Source of the DNA: Burkholderiales bacterium
Lineage (GTDB): Bacteria; Pseudomonadota; Gammaproteobacteria; Burkholderiales; Burkholderiaceae_C
NCBI GenBank assembly: GCA_016219375.1
Contig: JACRNC010000003.1
Location: forward strand, 62,001-126,000
Direction of reading: 5' to 3'
DNA length: 64,000 bases
In this document: positions 18,452 to 29,135 of the stretch, piece by piece
Layout of the letters: each line of letters begins with the position of its first letter
Position numbering within the stretch: position 1 is the first letter of the stretch
Program-made: the position numbers and the translations under genes
Notes under the pieces: generated by a model
What the model was told of the DNA's origin: nothing
The model's input: the letters and a program-made list of their open reading frames with translations, nothing else
Database searches by the model: none

Positions 18452-18476
18452 AGGGCCCGCCAAGAGCGGGCCTTTG
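18452..18476 (+). terminator. intrinsic terminator of the ribosomal operon
   Basis: Stem GGCCCGC/GCGGGCC (18454-18460 with 18466-18472), loop CAAGA, then TTT. It lies 24 nt after the rplQ stop. The next 120 bp before the ABC transporter hold imperfect CTGCTTCTTGG-like repeats without obvious function. Confidence 0.75.
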
Positions 18477-18599
18477 TCATTTGCGGGCCTGCTTCTTGGG
18501 TCCGCTTCTTGCGGCTGCTTGTTGGACTGCTTCTGGGACCTGCTCCCTGGGACGGCTTCGACTGCCGCAGCGCGCGGCGCCTTTTGGCACACTGCGCGC

Positions 18600-19523
18600 A
18601 TGCCCAGCCCGCTCATCTTCAGCGCCATGTCCCTGGTCAAGCGCTATGGCCAGCAGATGGTCGTGGATGGCCTGTCGTTCGATGTCCATGCAGGCGAATG
18701 CGTGGGCATCATCGGGCCCAATGGTGCGGGCAAAACGACCACGATGCGGATGTGCCTGGGACTGACGCAGCCGGACGCCGGCAGCATCCAGGCCTTCGGG
18801 CTGCCGCTGGACAGCGACCTGCTGCGCGCCAAGCAGCGCATGGGCGTGGTGACGCAGTTCGACAGCCTGGACCCGGACTTCACCTGCGCCGAGAACCTGC
18901 TGGTGTATGGCCGCTACTTCGGGCTGCCGCGTGCGGTGATCGATGAGCGCATCCCGCGCCTGCTGGAGTTCGCCGCGCTGCAGGCCAAGGCGGGCGCGCG
19001 CCCGGGTGAACTCTCCGGCGGCATGCGTCGGCGGCTGAGCCTGGCCCGGGCGCTGGTCAACGACCCGGACCTGCTTCTGCTGGACGAGCCGACCACCGGG
19101 CTGGACCCGCAGGCGCGCCATCTGATGTGGGAGCGGCTGAAGCGGCTGCTGCAGGACGGCAAGGCCATCGTGCTGACGACGCACTTCATGGACGAGGCGC
19201 AGCGGCTGTGCGACCGGCTGCTCGTCATGGATCATGGCCGCCGCATTGCCGAGGGCACACCGGCCGGCCTGATCGCGCAGTACCTGGAGCCCGATGTGAT
19301 CGAGGTTTACGGCGACGGTGCGGTCGACCTGGCGCACAGCCACCGCCAGCATGCCGAGCGGGTGGAGGTCAGCGGCGACACGCTGTTCTTCTATACCGCC
19401 TCGCCGGCTCCGCTGCTCGATGCGCTGGCGCAGCGGCGGGAGCTGAGGGTGATGCACCGGCCGGCCAACCTGGAGGACCTGTTCCTCAAGCTCACCGGCC
19501 GGCAGATCCGGGAGGAGGCGTGA
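18600..19523 (+). CDS. ABC transporter ATP-binding protein, NodI/DrrA-like
   Basis: 307 aa with all ABC motifs: Walker [11 protein letters not shown]-loop [12 protein letters not shown], signature LSGGMRRRL, Walker [14 protein letters not shown] and the switch His in [11 protein letters not shown]. The C-terminal 80 residues match the regulatory tail of the NodI-type exporter ATPases. It pairs with the permease that follows with a 1-nt overlap (TGATG), forming a two-component exporter of unknown substrate (relatives export lipo-oligosaccharides, drugs or polysaccharide parts). The start at 18600 is the one nearest the conserved [14 protein letters not shown] strand. Confidence 0.88.
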
Positions 19524-20338
19524 TGGCGCCAGCGCAATCGAGACGGGCATCGTCCCGCGCAGGCTGGATGGCACCGCCCCGGCTGTCCTGGCGTTTCACC
19601 GCCGTGCTGTGGCGCAACCTGCTGGTCTGGCGCAAGCTGGCCGTGCCCAGCCTGATCGGCAACATTGCCGAGCCGCTGATCATCCTGGTGGCCTTCGGCT
19701 ACGGCGTGGGCGCGCTGGTGGGCGAGGTGCGCGGGCTGCCGTACATCCTCTTCCTGGCGTCGGGCAGCATCTGCATGAGCACCATGTATGCAGCATCCTT
19801 CGAGGCGCTGTACTCGGCCTTCTCGCGCATGCATGTGCAGAAAACCTGGGACGGCATCATGAACGCGCCGGTGCGGCTGGACGACATCGTGCTGGCCGAG
19901 CTGCTTTGGGCGGCGTTGAAAAGCGTGTTCACCGCCGTCGCCATCGCCGGTGTGCTGATGGCCCTGGGCATCAGCCGGCAGCCGACGCTGCTGCTGGCCA
20001 TCCCGCTGCTGGGCCTGGTGGGGCTCGCCTTCGCCGCCATTGCGCTGATCTTCAATGCGCTGGCCAAGGGTTATGACTTCTTCACCTACTACTTCACCCT
20101 GGTGCTCACGCCAATGACCTTCCTGTCGGGCGTGTACTTCCCGCTGGACCAGATGCCGCATGCGCTGCAGATGGCTTCGGCCGTGCTGCCGCTGACGGCG
20201 GCCGTGGAGCTGATCCGGCCGCTGGTGATCGGGGAATGGCCGGTGCGCTGGCTGGCTCCGCTGGCTCAGTTGCTGGGCACGACGCTGGCCGCGGGCTGGG
20301 TCGCGCTGGCCCTCACTCGGCGCCGCTTCGGGCGTTGA
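19523..20338 (+). CDS. ABC-2 type transporter permease, NodJ-like
   Basis: 271 aa with six hydrophobic segments and the ABC-2 family elements SGVYFPLDQMP and AVLPLTAAVELIRPLVIGEW near the C-terminus, as in NodJ. It forms the membrane channel for the ATPase encoded just upstream; GGAGGAGG precedes the ATG, which overlaps the preceding stop by one base. No nod or polysaccharide genes are nearby, so a role in nodulation is not suggested and the substrate stays unknown. Confidence 0.87.
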   Translation: MAPAQSRRASSRAGWMAPPRLSWRFTAVLWRNLLVWRKLAVPSLIGNIAEPLIILVAFGYGVGALVGEVRGLPYILFLASGSICMSTMYAASFEALYSAFSRMHVQKTWDGIMNAPVRLDDIVLAELLWAALKSVFTAVAIAGVLMALGISRQPTLLLAIPLLGLVGLAFAAIALIFNALAKGYDFFTYYFTLVLTPMTFLSGVYFPLDQMPHALQMASAVLPLTAAVELIRPLVIGEWPVRWLAPLAQLLGTTLAAGWVALALTRRRFGR

Positions 20339-20363: not shown

Positions 20364-20708
20364 ATGCGGGCCGACGAGGAGCAGGTGTGCGTAGTGCTGT
20401 GCACCGCGCCGAGCGAGAAGGCAGCCGCGGCGCTGGCGCAGGCAGTGCTGCAGGCGCGTGCGGCGGCCTGCGTCAATGTGCTGCCGGGCGTGCGCTCGCA
20501 CTACTGGTGGGAAGGACGGCTGCACGAAGACGGCGAGTGGCTGCTGCTCATCAAGACCACGCGCGCCCGTTACGCCGCGCTGCAGGCGGCGGTGCGCGAG
20601 GCGCATCCCTATGAGGTGCCGGAGATCATTGCGCTCGACGTGGCGGACGGCTGGCCCCCCTATCTGGCCTGGGTTGCGCAGCAGGCGCGCGGGCCCAAGG
20701 GTGTTTGA
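20364..20708 (+). CDS. cutA: divalent-cation tolerance protein CutA
   Basis: 114 aa, trimeric ferredoxin-like fold. Family signatures are TAPSEKAAAALAQAVLQ, AACVNVLPGVRSHYWWEG and HPYEVPEIIALDV. CutA is implicated in copper and other divalent metal tolerance, but its mechanism is unclear. It is 25 nt after the ABC permease with AAGGAG before the ATG, so probably the same transcript. Confidence 0.93.
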   Translation: MRADEEQVCVVLCTAPSEKAAAALAQAVLQARAAACVNVLPGVRSHYWWEGRLHEDGEWLLLIKTTRARYAALQAAVREAHPYEVPEIIALDVADGWPPYLAWVAQQARGPKGV

Positions 20709-20720
20709 GCAGCCTGCGGC

Positions 20721-20749
20721 GTGACAACACCAAATGCCTGTGCTATAGT
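20721..20749 (+). promoter_or_regulatory. promoter of tRNA-fMet
   Basis: GTGACA (20721-20726), a 17-bp spacer and TATAGT (20744-20749) form a near-consensus sigma-70 promoter ending 13 nt before the tRNA. Confidence 0.8.
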
Positions 20750-20762
20750 TTCATTCTTCTGA

Positions 20763-20839
<77 letters not shown>

Positions 20840-20849
20840 CTCCGAGAGA

Positions 20850-20880
20850 CAGGCCGCTTCCGCAAGGAGCGGCCTGTTTT
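20850..20880 (+). terminator. intrinsic terminator after tRNA-fMet
   Basis: Stem CAGGCCGCT/AGCGGCCTG (20850-20858 with 20868-20876) followed by TTTT. The 228 bp from here to the next gene show no further signal. Confidence 0.85.
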
Positions 20881-21108
20881 GCTTTGTGCGCGGCTTTGTG
20901 TCTGCTGCTCGGTGCCTGTGCATGCGCGGCGGGGGCATGACTTGTGGGCACGTGCCGCGCTGCGCCGGCAAGCTGGATGTTGAGCCATGCTGAGCCGCAC
21001 GGCCCGCCGGGTCGGCACCCATGTTGCACACGCACGCACACGCTTACCGCACGCTGCGGGCACGCTTCTCATACTGCGCTCCCTTCGATGTTTGGACAGG
21101 AGCAGGCG

Positions 21109-21402
21109 ATGACGCTCACCCCCCGTATGCAGTTGCCCGAGCCCTATGTCGGCCATGAGGCCGTGGTGATCCGTGTGGACACCGGCCGGCGCGAGGTGCG
21201 CGCCGTTGTGTCGCGCGAGGCGCTGGAAGAGCGCTTTGCCGCCGGCCACACGCCGCAGGACTGGTTGCTGGCCTACCAGGCCCATGCCGAGGAGATCCAG
21301 GCGGTGGTGCGGGCCAAGGTGGCGCGCGCCAGCCCGGAGCCGGTGGTCATCTCCAAATACGACTTCTCGAGAGCCGACGCAGCCGGCATGACGGCCCGCT
21401 GA
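21109..21402 (+). CDS. small DUF1488-like protein
   Basis: 97 aa, starting MTLTPRMQLPEPYVGHEAVV; CAGGAG precedes the ATG by 6 nt. The pattern V-x-R-(E)ALEERF followed by a helix with AEEIQAVVRAKV resembles the DUF1488 family of small proteins, whose role is unknown. There is no signal peptide or membrane segment. It stands alone between tRNA-fMet and the Fur-box promoter. The family match is by eye and moderate. Confidence 0.6.
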   Translation: MTLTPRMQLPEPYVGHEAVVIRVDTGRREVRAVVSREALEERFAAGHTPQDWLLAYQAHAEEIQAVVRAKVARASPEPVVISKYDFSRADAAGMTAR

Positions 21403-21445
21403 GCGTTGCGCTTCTCCTGCGAATAGCCCGGCCACCTGCCGGGAC

Positions 21446-21486
21446 TTGCGCCTGGCCTGCACCTCCATATAATGAGAATCATTCGC
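21446..21486 (+). promoter_or_regulatory. sigma-70 promoter overlapped by a Fur box
   Basis: TTGCGC (21446-21451), a 16-bp spacer and a perfect TATAAT (21468-21473). The 19 bases 21468-21486 match the Fur consensus GATAATGATAATCATTATC at 15 positions, with the core AATGAGAATCATT intact. A Fur-Fe(II) dimer there would cover the -10 box and the start site, so transcription should rise when iron is scarce. Confidence 0.75.
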
Positions 21487-21623
21487 AATGACGGATGAGG
21501 CGGTGGGGACGTGAGTCACGCCAGATGCCCGTCAAGGCGCTGCCCGGTTTCGTGGGGCAGCGAGGCCGGCAGGCTCGCTGCATTTGCGGGGCCGCCTCCC
21601 GATAGGGGCGGCCCCGTTTTTTT
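21480..21623 (+). ncRNA. candidate Fur-regulated small RNA (or leader RNA)
   Basis: The Fur-box promoter predicts a start near 21480, and a strong terminator ends at 21623, giving a transcript of about 144 nt with no convincing reading frame. Several helices can form: GACGG (21490) with CCGTC (21529), CGTG/CACG (21510-21520), CTGCCC/GGGCAG (21540-21560), GCGAG/CTCGC (21560-21578) and the terminator stem. Iron-regulated small RNAs of other bacteria (RyhB, PrrF, NrrF) have this same Fur promoter plus terminator layout, but no primary-sequence likeness to them was recognised. Because a gene with a good ribosome binding site starts 27 nt after the T run, an attenuator leader is the alternative. 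Confidence 0.6.
21587..21623 (+). terminator. strong intrinsic terminator of the candidate small RNA
   Basis: Perfect 10-bp stem CGGGGCCGCC/GGCGGCCCCG (21587-21596 with 21607-21616), 10-nt loop, seven T. Confidence 0.92.
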
Positions 21624-21650
21624 GCCAATGCAGGTCCAGCGGAGGTCGCA

Positions 21651-21968
21651 ATGAACCAGTCCCGATCAGCCCAGGCGGCAAGCGGCGTCTGCGAGGTCGA
21701 GATGACGGCGCTAGAGGCCCAACTGGCCGCGGCGCTGGTGCTGATGACGGCGCACGAGCGCAGCGGCCAGGCCGCCGAGCAGCGCATGGCCTTGGCCCGC
21801 AAGATCGGCGCGCATCTAGAGGCGCTGGCCGGCGAGATGCGGCTGTCGCAGGCCTTTCGCCGCATCGCCGAATGCCTGGGCAGCCAATGGGCCGAGCAGG
21901 CGGGGGTGCAGGCGGCCGTGCAGCGCGGTCAATTGGCCATCATGCCGGCGGCGCCGGGCCTGCATTGA
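21651..21968 (+). CDS. hypothetical protein, helical, 105 aa
   Basis: Not recognised. The ATG follows GGAGG at 5 nt, so it is likely translated. The product is predicted to be mostly alpha-helical (MTALEAQLAAALVLMTAHER, AEQRMALARKIGAHLEALAG), without signal peptide, cysteine pairs or membrane segment; a coiled-coil or regulator-like small protein is possible. It lies 27 nt downstream of the terminator of the Fur-controlled RNA and is convergent with glpQ. If the terminator leaks, it would be iron-regulated. Confidence 0.6.
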   Translation: MNQSRSAQAASGVCEVEMTALEAQLAAALVLMTAHERSGQAAEQRMALARKIGAHLEALAGEMRLSQAFRRIAECLGSQWAEQAGVQAAVQRGQLAIMPAAPGLH

Positions 21969-22004
21969 GGACGCAAACAGGCCGGCGCGCGTGTCGAGCG
22001 TGTC

Positions 22005-23192
22005 TTAGCGGCCGATGAAGGCGTCGCGCGCTTGCACGCCCAGGAAGGCCTGATCGGTGAAGAAGCCGTCCAGGCCGGTGGCCAGCAGGGTGCGGGCATA
22101 GTCGCCCATGCGGCCGATGGCGGCGGGCTCGCTGCCGTTGTCGAACTCGGCGGGCAGGAAGACGTTTTCGGCTCGCAGCGTCCAGGCGTGGACGACCAGG
22201 CCGGCGGCGTGTGCGTCCTTGACCAGCGTGGTGGGCTGTCCGAGCGTGCCGTTCCCCGTGAGCGGGATGACAAGGCTGGTGTGTGCGCCGATCCCCTGCG
22301 CGTAGCGGGCGATCTCCTTCAGGCCCTCGGGCTTGGCCAGATCGGCGTAGGTTCGCGCGTCGCCCGAGACGACGAAGTCATAGGGCTTGCCGCTGTTGCT
22401 GAGCAACTGCACGAGTGGCAGGCGGGTCATCCGTGAGAGCTCGCGCAGGTTGCCGACTTCGAAGGACTGGATGATGGCCGCGTCCCGGCGGCTGCTGTAG
22501 CCGAAGCGGCGCAGCGTGCGCACCAGAGGTTCCTCCAGGGACAGGCCGATGCTGTCGAAGTAGGTCGGGTGCTTGGTCTCGGGATAGACGCCGACCGGCT
22601 TGAAGTCGCGCAGCGTGCCGCTCTGGATGGCGCGCTGGCGACGGCGTTCATTGGCCTGCTCGACCAGGCGCAGCACCTCTTCCAGCGTGGGCACCTCGAA
22701 CATGTTGTCGAAGCGGGTGTTGGCTGTGCGCAGCTGCGGCAGGCGCTCGCGGGCGCGCAGGGTCTTGAGCTCAGCCAGCGTGAAGTCCTCGGTAAACCAG
22801 CCGGTGATCGTGACGCCGTCGATCACCTTGGTGCGCTTGCGGTCGGCGAATTCGGGTCGCTCTTGCACGTCGGTGGTGGCCTCGCGCAGGCTGCCGTCGG
22901 CGTTGAGGATGGCCATGGCGTTCTCATGGCGGGCGACGAGCACGCCGTCGCGGGTGCTCACCAAGTCCGGCTCGACATAGTCGGCGCCCTGTTCGATGGC
23001 CAGCCAGTAGGCGGCCAGCGTGTGCTCGGGCACGTAGCCGCTTGCGCCGCGGTGGGCGATGACGACCGGCGTCTCAGGCGCCTGAGCATCGCCGTCGCGG
23101 TGCGCATGCGCGCCGGTGACCAGCGCGCAGCTGGCGATCAGCATGGCAAGGGCGCGCGACAGGGCATGGCGGCGCGGCGTGAGGACGGTCAT
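22005..23192 (-). CDS. glpQ: periplasmic glycerophosphodiester phosphodiesterase
   Basis: 395 aa with a signal peptide (cleavage after AHA, about residue 30). The GDPD domain shows the catalytic HRGASGYVPEHTLAAYWLAI, then ADYVEPDLVSTRDGVLVARHE with the metal-binding E-x-D and second histidine. It hydrolyses glycerophosphodiesters to glycerol-3-phosphate and an alcohol in the periplasm. The long insert between about residues 95 and 170 is typical of the GlpQ rather than UgpQ branch. No glp transporter gene is adjacent and no clear Pho box was found upstream. Confidence 0.93.
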   Translation of the reverse strand: MTVLTPRRHALSRALAMLIASCALVTGAHAHRDGDAQAPETPVVIAHRGASGYVPEHTLAAYWLAIEQGADYVEPDLVSTRDGVLVARHENAMAILNADGSLREATTDVQERPEFADRKRTKVIDGVTITGWFTEDFTLAELKTLRARERLPQLRTANTRFDNMFEVPTLEEVLRLVEQANERRRQRAIQSGTLRDFKPVGVYPETKHPTYFDSIGLSLEEPLVRTLRRFGYSSRRDAAIIQSFEVGNLRELSRMTRLPLVQLLSNSGKPYDFVVSGDARTYADLAKPEGLKEIARYAQGIGAHTSLVIPLTGNGTLGQPTTLVKDAHAAGLVVHAWTLRAENVFLPAEFDNGSEPAAIGRMGDYARTLLATGLDGFFTDQAFLGVQARDAFIGR

Positions 23193-29100: not shown

Positions 29101-29135
29101 GAAAAAGAGGCCCGCCAGGTCTCCCCGGCGGGCCT
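29101..29135 (-). terminator. intrinsic terminator of acnB
   Basis: On the minus strand the stem AGGCCCGCC/GGCGGGCCT (29108-29116 with 29127-29135) is followed by CTTTTTCTT. It lies 29 nt after the acnB stop. Confidence 0.88.

Follow-up and report, generated by a model that had tools for sequence, protein, structure and literature searches.

RyhB and NrrF are short RNAs that are transcribed from Fur-repressed promoters and end at intrinsic terminators, and both are encoded by free-standing genes. In Pseudomonas aeruginosa, PrrF1 has a Fur site and starts 116 nt before its Rho-independent terminator, and reading through this terminator gives a longer transcript, PrrH, for which anti-termination is proposed in the excerpted source (PMC2851614). 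As described in excerpts of two further reports, BrrF of Burkholderia cenocepacia arises by cleavage from the 3' part of the hemP mRNA (PMC7377471), and Salmonella mgtCBR has a transcription-attenuated leader with two short leader frames (PMC3641672).

Here, we analysed a 64-kb window (bases 62001-126000 of contig 1) from a Burkholderiales genome of 3.58 Mb in 24 contigs. In a preliminary description, an interval of this window had been presented as a candidate iron-regulated small RNA with the layout of RyhB, PrrF and NrrF. We propose instead that this interval is probably the 5' leader of the adjoining gene, orf105, and that it has a built-in terminator, with a Fur-repressed promoter giving both a ~140-nt RNA and a read-through orf105 mRNA. 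RyhB and NrrF differ from this arrangement as free-standing genes, whereas the window RNA lies 5' of orf105 and has no covariance match. As far as the excerpted sources go, PrrF1/PrrH would be the closest working analogy: both loci have a Fur site, a terminator ~100 nt on and a read-through product (a proposed one in the window), but PrrF read-through enters a second sRNA, whereas that in the window would enter a protein gene. BrrF, in its excerpted account, likewise responds to iron and is tied to a small protein gene under Fur control in Burkholderiales, as predicted for the RNA in the window, but BrrF lies in the 3' part of the hemP mRNA and the window RNA 5' of orf105. The mgtCBR leader, in its excerpted description, contains two leader frames, whereas a leader peptide or antiterminator is unsupported in the window.

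A predicted promoter overlapped by a Fur box

The perfect TATAAT of the preliminary description was confirmed at 21468-21473 (+ strand) as the predicted -10 element, and no other TATAAT occurs on either strand of the 64-kb window. The element is contained in the Fur box (TATAATGAGAATCATTCGC, 21468-21486, + strand), which overlaps the -10 and matches the Fur consensus at 15/19 positions, as had been claimed. In 300 first-order Markov versions of the window, in which one strand was scored, sites of at least 14/19 occurred at 0.013 per 64 kb and none reached 15/19. In addition, the Fur-box 18-mer occurs once in the whole genome at up to 3 mismatches, while the backward control gave 0 occurrences. 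The good -35 element that had been described did not hold up, as the best hexamer at a spacing of 15-19, TTGCGC (21446-21451, + strand, spacer 16), is weak and agrees at 3/6 positions, and a promoter scan that requires 4/6 does not list the Fur promoter. Transcription would start near 21480. Two observations support Fur (iron) control of the promoter, the box itself and the link of the orf105 family to Fur described below, and by its sequence the locus reads as a Fur-controlled transcription unit.

We also searched for TATAAT-Fur sites elsewhere and found matches in 34 of 61 genomes. The 30 loci inspected, including our own, mostly place the site 5' of protein genes as judged by eye. Weaker T-run hairpins were seen at two of the other loci, L171 (-14.4 kcal/mol, 41 nt from the box) and L187 (-15.5 kcal/mol, 329 nt).

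An intrinsic terminator between the promoter and orf105

A hairpin scan and folding placed an intrinsic terminator at 21586-21623 (+ strand), which consists of a stem at 21586-21617 followed by a T7 run at 21617-21623. The terminator and its seven T thus stand as first described, but the stem is larger than the ten base pairs then reported, with 13 pairs that include one G-U and 11 G-C. Four hairpins in the window with at least five T passed the cut-off, and this one has the highest stability (-29.5 kcal/mol). A second strong hairpin, at 29106 on the - strand, has a five-T run and -28.7 kcal/mol. The stem begins ~106 nt after the predicted start, in agreement with the 100-150 nt given earlier, and the distance from the T-run to the next ATG, that of orf105, is 27 nt as stated there.

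The predicted leader or short RNA, placed from the -10 element and the terminator, would run from the putative start to the end of the T-run (21480-21623, + strand, ~140 nt). Its fold has a z score of -2.78, with 2 of 200 shuffles equally good, and the leader up to orf105 has a z score of -1.97. The part before the terminator was equalled by 59 of 500 shuffles when folded alone, which shows that much of the stability of the transcript fold comes from the terminator; the several helices that had been noted are to be viewed with caution. Two hairpins of 8 perfect pairs each lie here on the + strand, hairpin A (21538-21562), which is not favoured in the full fold (pair probability ~0.05), and hairpin B (21557-21581), with pair probabilities of mostly ~0.6. 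Since the two have bases in common, they form one at a time. The short frames in the leader include ones of 8 (starting at 21488), 36, 47 and 26 codons; none is convincing, as the preliminary description had found, and a search for homologues of the 47-aa frame found none. The scan showed no promoter between the leader and orf105, a negative result that weighs little because the same scan misses the Fur promoter.

The earlier description had left open a terminator-attenuated leader, and a leader does fit better than a free-standing RNA. An intrinsic terminator between promoter and gene, as well as the mutually exclusive hairpins A and B, would suit a genuine attenuator or a riboswitch-like leader, where the choice between the terminator and an antiterminator falls to a ligand, a protein or a ribosome. 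In transcripts ending near 21600, the preferred fold is indeed hairpin B extended with 21545-21553, which holds the 5' arm of the terminator. However, the completed terminator beats this competing antiterminator fold by ~19 kcal/mol, and the energy gain of the antiterminator is average for shuffles (10.6 compared to 10.8 ± 3.3 for shuffled leaders, 244 of 500 being equal or better). Since shuffled leaders gain equal energy, we do not claim regulated antitermination, and a true attenuator appears quite improbable. A different antiterminator, pairing 21497-21503 with 21592-21598, was dropped with a pair probability of 0.

Comparison with known small RNAs

To the preliminary description, the RNA bore no recognised likeness to RyhB, PrrF or NrrF, and Rfam agrees: these families, which we take to be present in Rfam, were absent from the 10 matches at E ≤10 on 21400-21700, and nothing there matched above gathering. 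Two other Burkholderia sRNA models matched the same stretch at scores far below gathering. The trait of RyhB, PrrF and NrrF that was found at this locus is a putative Fur box directly at the promoter. Membership in RyhB, PrrF, NrrF or BrrF is not supported. A hemP search (PF10636) found no match in the window's own genome, which is listed as 99.99% complete, and E. coli alone matched among 14 control genomes; a BrrF-type sRNA would therefore not be expected at the site described for BrrF.

A free-standing, trans-acting, iron-sparing sRNA that works in the way of RyhB, PrrF and NrrF, with orf105 as a neighbour transcribed by leakage, would account for the Fur box directly on the -10, the ~140-nt length and the T7 terminator, and would suit a genome that has no hemP match. 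It is opposed by the Rfam result, in which even lax filters gave scores far below gathering, and by the orf105 family, which already explains the Fur box. We consider such an sRNA rather unlikely.

The orf105 family and its association with Fur boxes

orf105 (21651-21968, + strand) stands behind a good Shine-Dalgarno sequence, GGAGG (21641-21645, + strand), and encodes a protein of 105 aa that has no Pfam or NCBIfam match at E 0.001. The predicted structure has three helices (mean pLDDT 80), and no PDB match was found for this fold at E 0.001. A protein search with orf105 gave six clusters including itself. Among 399 genomes of the bacterial family, 15 including its own have an orf105 match at E 1e-6, and the others are 31-46% identical. 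A wider search with a 19-member alignment found orf105-family members in 85 of the 389 genomes searched, spread over 45 of 141 genera (E 1e-8, own included, 12 candidates scored per genome), and 402 of 7997 scored candidates are family proteins at E 1e-10. Among the 120 matches listed, all named ones are called "hypothetical protein", and the excerpts of the literature searched hold no recognised description of the family or of the leader. The orf105 family is an undescribed small-protein family, with three helices predicted for the member in the window. The genomes that carry the orf105 homologues P0002-P0006 were not found among the family samples and nine genomes of a genus that we take to be Caldimonas; two of these nine genomes have distant matches.

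We fetched the best-scoring 30 of 86 family matches, namely our own and 29 others, and scored each, with a simple consensus, for its best Fur match within a stretch of 300 upstream nt and a further 30 nt. Among the 29 other copies, 17 have a match of at least 11/19, 13 of at least 12/19 and 7 of at least 13/19, compared to 155, 31 and 4 of 800 random windows, which were drawn from 80 other loci and were not matched for intergenic position. Since 155 of the 800 random windows reach at least 11/19, a match of 11/19 alone says little. For at least 12/19, shuffles of the same 29 stretches gave an expectation of 0.93 copies. In 10 of the 29 copies, a receptor frame ends 25-106 nt upstream; all seven of these frames that were tested are TonB receptors, and the remaining three were judged by eye. 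None of these ten copies has a Fur match of at least 11/19, while 17 of the other 19 copies do and 13 reach at least 12/19 (0.84 expected from shuffles). The 29 copies represent 18 genera and are not independent; counted by genus, a match of at least 12/19 occurs in 8, and in 5 others all copies lie behind a receptor.

Two copies, L206 and L216, adjoin a divergent ferritin-like gene, and the L204 copy lies behind an oxidoreductase that is presumably AhpF. An 11/19 box and a receptor are both missing from two of the 29 copies (L208 and L232), and at least one of the 12/19 matches, that of L233, may not be the true Fur site. Outside of the 29-copy set, L200 lies behind a HemP-like frame, which we take to be HemP, with a 14/19 box ~340 nt upstream, and L202 shows a doubtful match of 11/19 only. 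Because family copies elsewhere carry Fur matches or sit behind receptors, the Fur promoter is most likely that of orf105. The family, which bears no Pfam or NCBIfam name, is thus widespread and occurs with Fur boxes, TonB receptors and ferritin-like genes throughout the bacterial family.

Among 18 leaders with a box of at least 11/19, our own included, the window's leader alone has both a strong hairpin and a long run of T; a comparable terminator is absent from the 17 others, in which the longest T run is four. These leaders are mostly short, and those of L204 and L216 are long and terminator-less, with fold z scores of 0.07 and -1.03. Since all 17 other leaders are without a comparable terminator, the arrangement may be lineage-specific. 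The RyhB/PrrF/NrrF layout stands in its Fur box and terminator, but a free-standing sRNA is not the best reading, because orf105 accounts for the Fur promoter and because these 17 leaders are without a strong terminator between box and gene.

The probable leader in relatives

In a blastn search of 99 relatives and the window's own genome, the interval gave nothing beyond its own full match except isolated matches spanning 61 query bases or fewer, which argues against a free-standing sRNA and also weighs against the leader reading. A close orf105 was likewise not found in the genomes of the same 99 relatives, and the interval had no match in plasmid and phage collections. The comparison for compensatory changes that had been suggested earlier yielded one such change, in P0003, a predicted protein from a metagenome-assembled genome. 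The orf105 part of P0003 is 79% identical, and of its annotated 160 aa, the 52 residues before the orf105 start match the translated leader; the Fur box falls outside of the protein. Its possible codons were aligned to the window DNA with gaps fitted, and codons that do not allow all four bases were counted as informative.

The informative bases agree at 34/35 in the hairpin region (21535-21584) and at 24/26 in the terminator region (21585-21620), together 58/61 for the hairpin-terminator part. Over 21585-21650, 42 of 49 agree, and agreement is lower in the promoter-near part (19/24, with several gaps); the coding part, given for comparison and no neutral yardstick, shows 201/217. Two single-base gaps in the core fall in the arms of hairpin A and of the terminator, and both can be moved into loops without conflict. 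For the terminator, just one of the five registers that were compared allows all 13 pairs; four of the pairs are forced, and one of these is a double (compensatory) change from C-G to T-A. Hairpin B has no excluded pair, compared to 1-2 in slid controls, and hairpin A has none either, as is the case for two of its slid controls. Taken together, these comparisons, which are read from protein letters, suggest that the hairpin-terminator part is retained in a single relative, P0003. Retention of the leader core would also be expected of a free-standing sRNA. With regard to an attenuator, none of the 9 antiterminator pairs is excluded, compared to 1-4 in slid controls, which favours it, although plain sequence conservation would do likewise. 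At the place that matches the 8-codon frame at 21488, P0003 has no stop, which speaks against attenuation by a leader peptide.

Since P0003 is open through the leader, the leader could be partly coding, and orf105 would then have the longer form annotated there. In the window, however, a stop that ends at 21605 interrupts the orf105 frame, and the 47-codon frame that stays open is out of frame with orf105 and without a homologue. Furthermore, the leader aligns with P0003 only if one-base gaps shift the frame, and P0002, P0004 and P0005 begin at the orf105 ATG. A longer orf105 is thus extremely improbable.

Proposed regulation of orf105

We favour a 5' leader of orf105 with a built-in terminator, which would work as follows. 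When iron is plentiful, Fur would occupy the -10 element and block transcription. At low iron, RNA polymerase would begin near 21480 and make a GC-rich folded leader, and most transcripts would end at the terminator near 21620, with release of a short, ~140-nt RNA. Those transcripts that read through would be the orf105 mRNA, with its own Shine-Dalgarno sequence. The leader and sRNA readings are not exclusive, because termination would release the short RNA either way. So strong a terminator might let through little orf105 mRNA. On this proposal, a possible orphan sRNA becomes a testable unit of Fur promoter, terminated leader and orf105, and should the leader act in trans as well, it would show a route from an mRNA leader to an iron-sparing RNA in a genome that has no hemP match.

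The locus might even have two planned outputs, an iron-sparing terminated RNA and orf105 made by regulated read-through in response to a further signal, for instance heme or severe iron shortage; we consider this a long shot. If true, it would place PrrF/PrrH-like logic inside an mRNA leader and make orf105 a member of a new iron-stress protein family.

Genomic context of the probable leader

The + strand of the window carries, in order, rpoA, rplQ, a NodI/NodJ-like ABC pair, cutA, tRNA-Met, a DUF1488 gene, the interval and orf105; rpoA, rplQ and NodI/NodJ are presumed names, given from sequence by recall. The DUF1488 gene (21109-21402, + strand, 97 aa) matches Pfam PF07369 at E 3.8e-6, and a GDPD gene (22005-23192) is opposed to the direction of DUF1488 and orf105. 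In four genus mates (L023, L025, L026 and L028), DUF1488 adjoins an opposed GDPD-like gene (29-32% partial match); an orf105 match is absent between the two, and no Fur match there exceeds 12/19. Around DUF1488 in 11 genus-mate loci, the top Fur match in ~1.3 kb is likewise at most 12/19. The segment of Fur box, leader and orf105 may have been inserted between DUF1488 and the GDPD gene.

These genus mates, in which orf105 is missing between DUF1488 and the GDPD-like gene, suggest a later rearrangement, and the terminator could accordingly be that of the upstream DUF1488 gene, with the Fur promoter brought into its trailer by chance and no functional leader. From the DUF1488 stop to the Fur box, no T-run terminator is present in a scan of 20500-22500, which lists the one at 21586 only, as this explanation would have it; the DUF1488 gene also faces a GDPD-like gene in the four genus mates. 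However, the same hairpin-terminator part is found 5' of orf105 in P0003, which argues against a DUF1488 terminator. We consider the latter very improbable, and the terminated leader of orf105 is still our preferred reading.

Further upstream, the NodJ-like permease has two Caldimonas proteins as its nearest named relatives (75 and 77%), followed by Comamonadaceae, among the best 80 matches. A match to DUF1488, orf105 or GDPD was found in none of 80 named permease loci, many of which are partial. The tRNA-Met is present in three of the permease loci (L047, L048 and L110), and L047 continues into other DNA. Among 42 genomes of the genus, our own included, the permease of the NodI/NodJ-like pair (18474-20338) has a match above 30% identity in our own genome only; transfer, loss in other genus members, or an odd genus placement are possible. 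In two Caldimonas loci (L047, 7111-9076, and L048, 7135-9129), ~2 kb separates the cutA match from tRNA-Met, compared to ~55 bases in the window.
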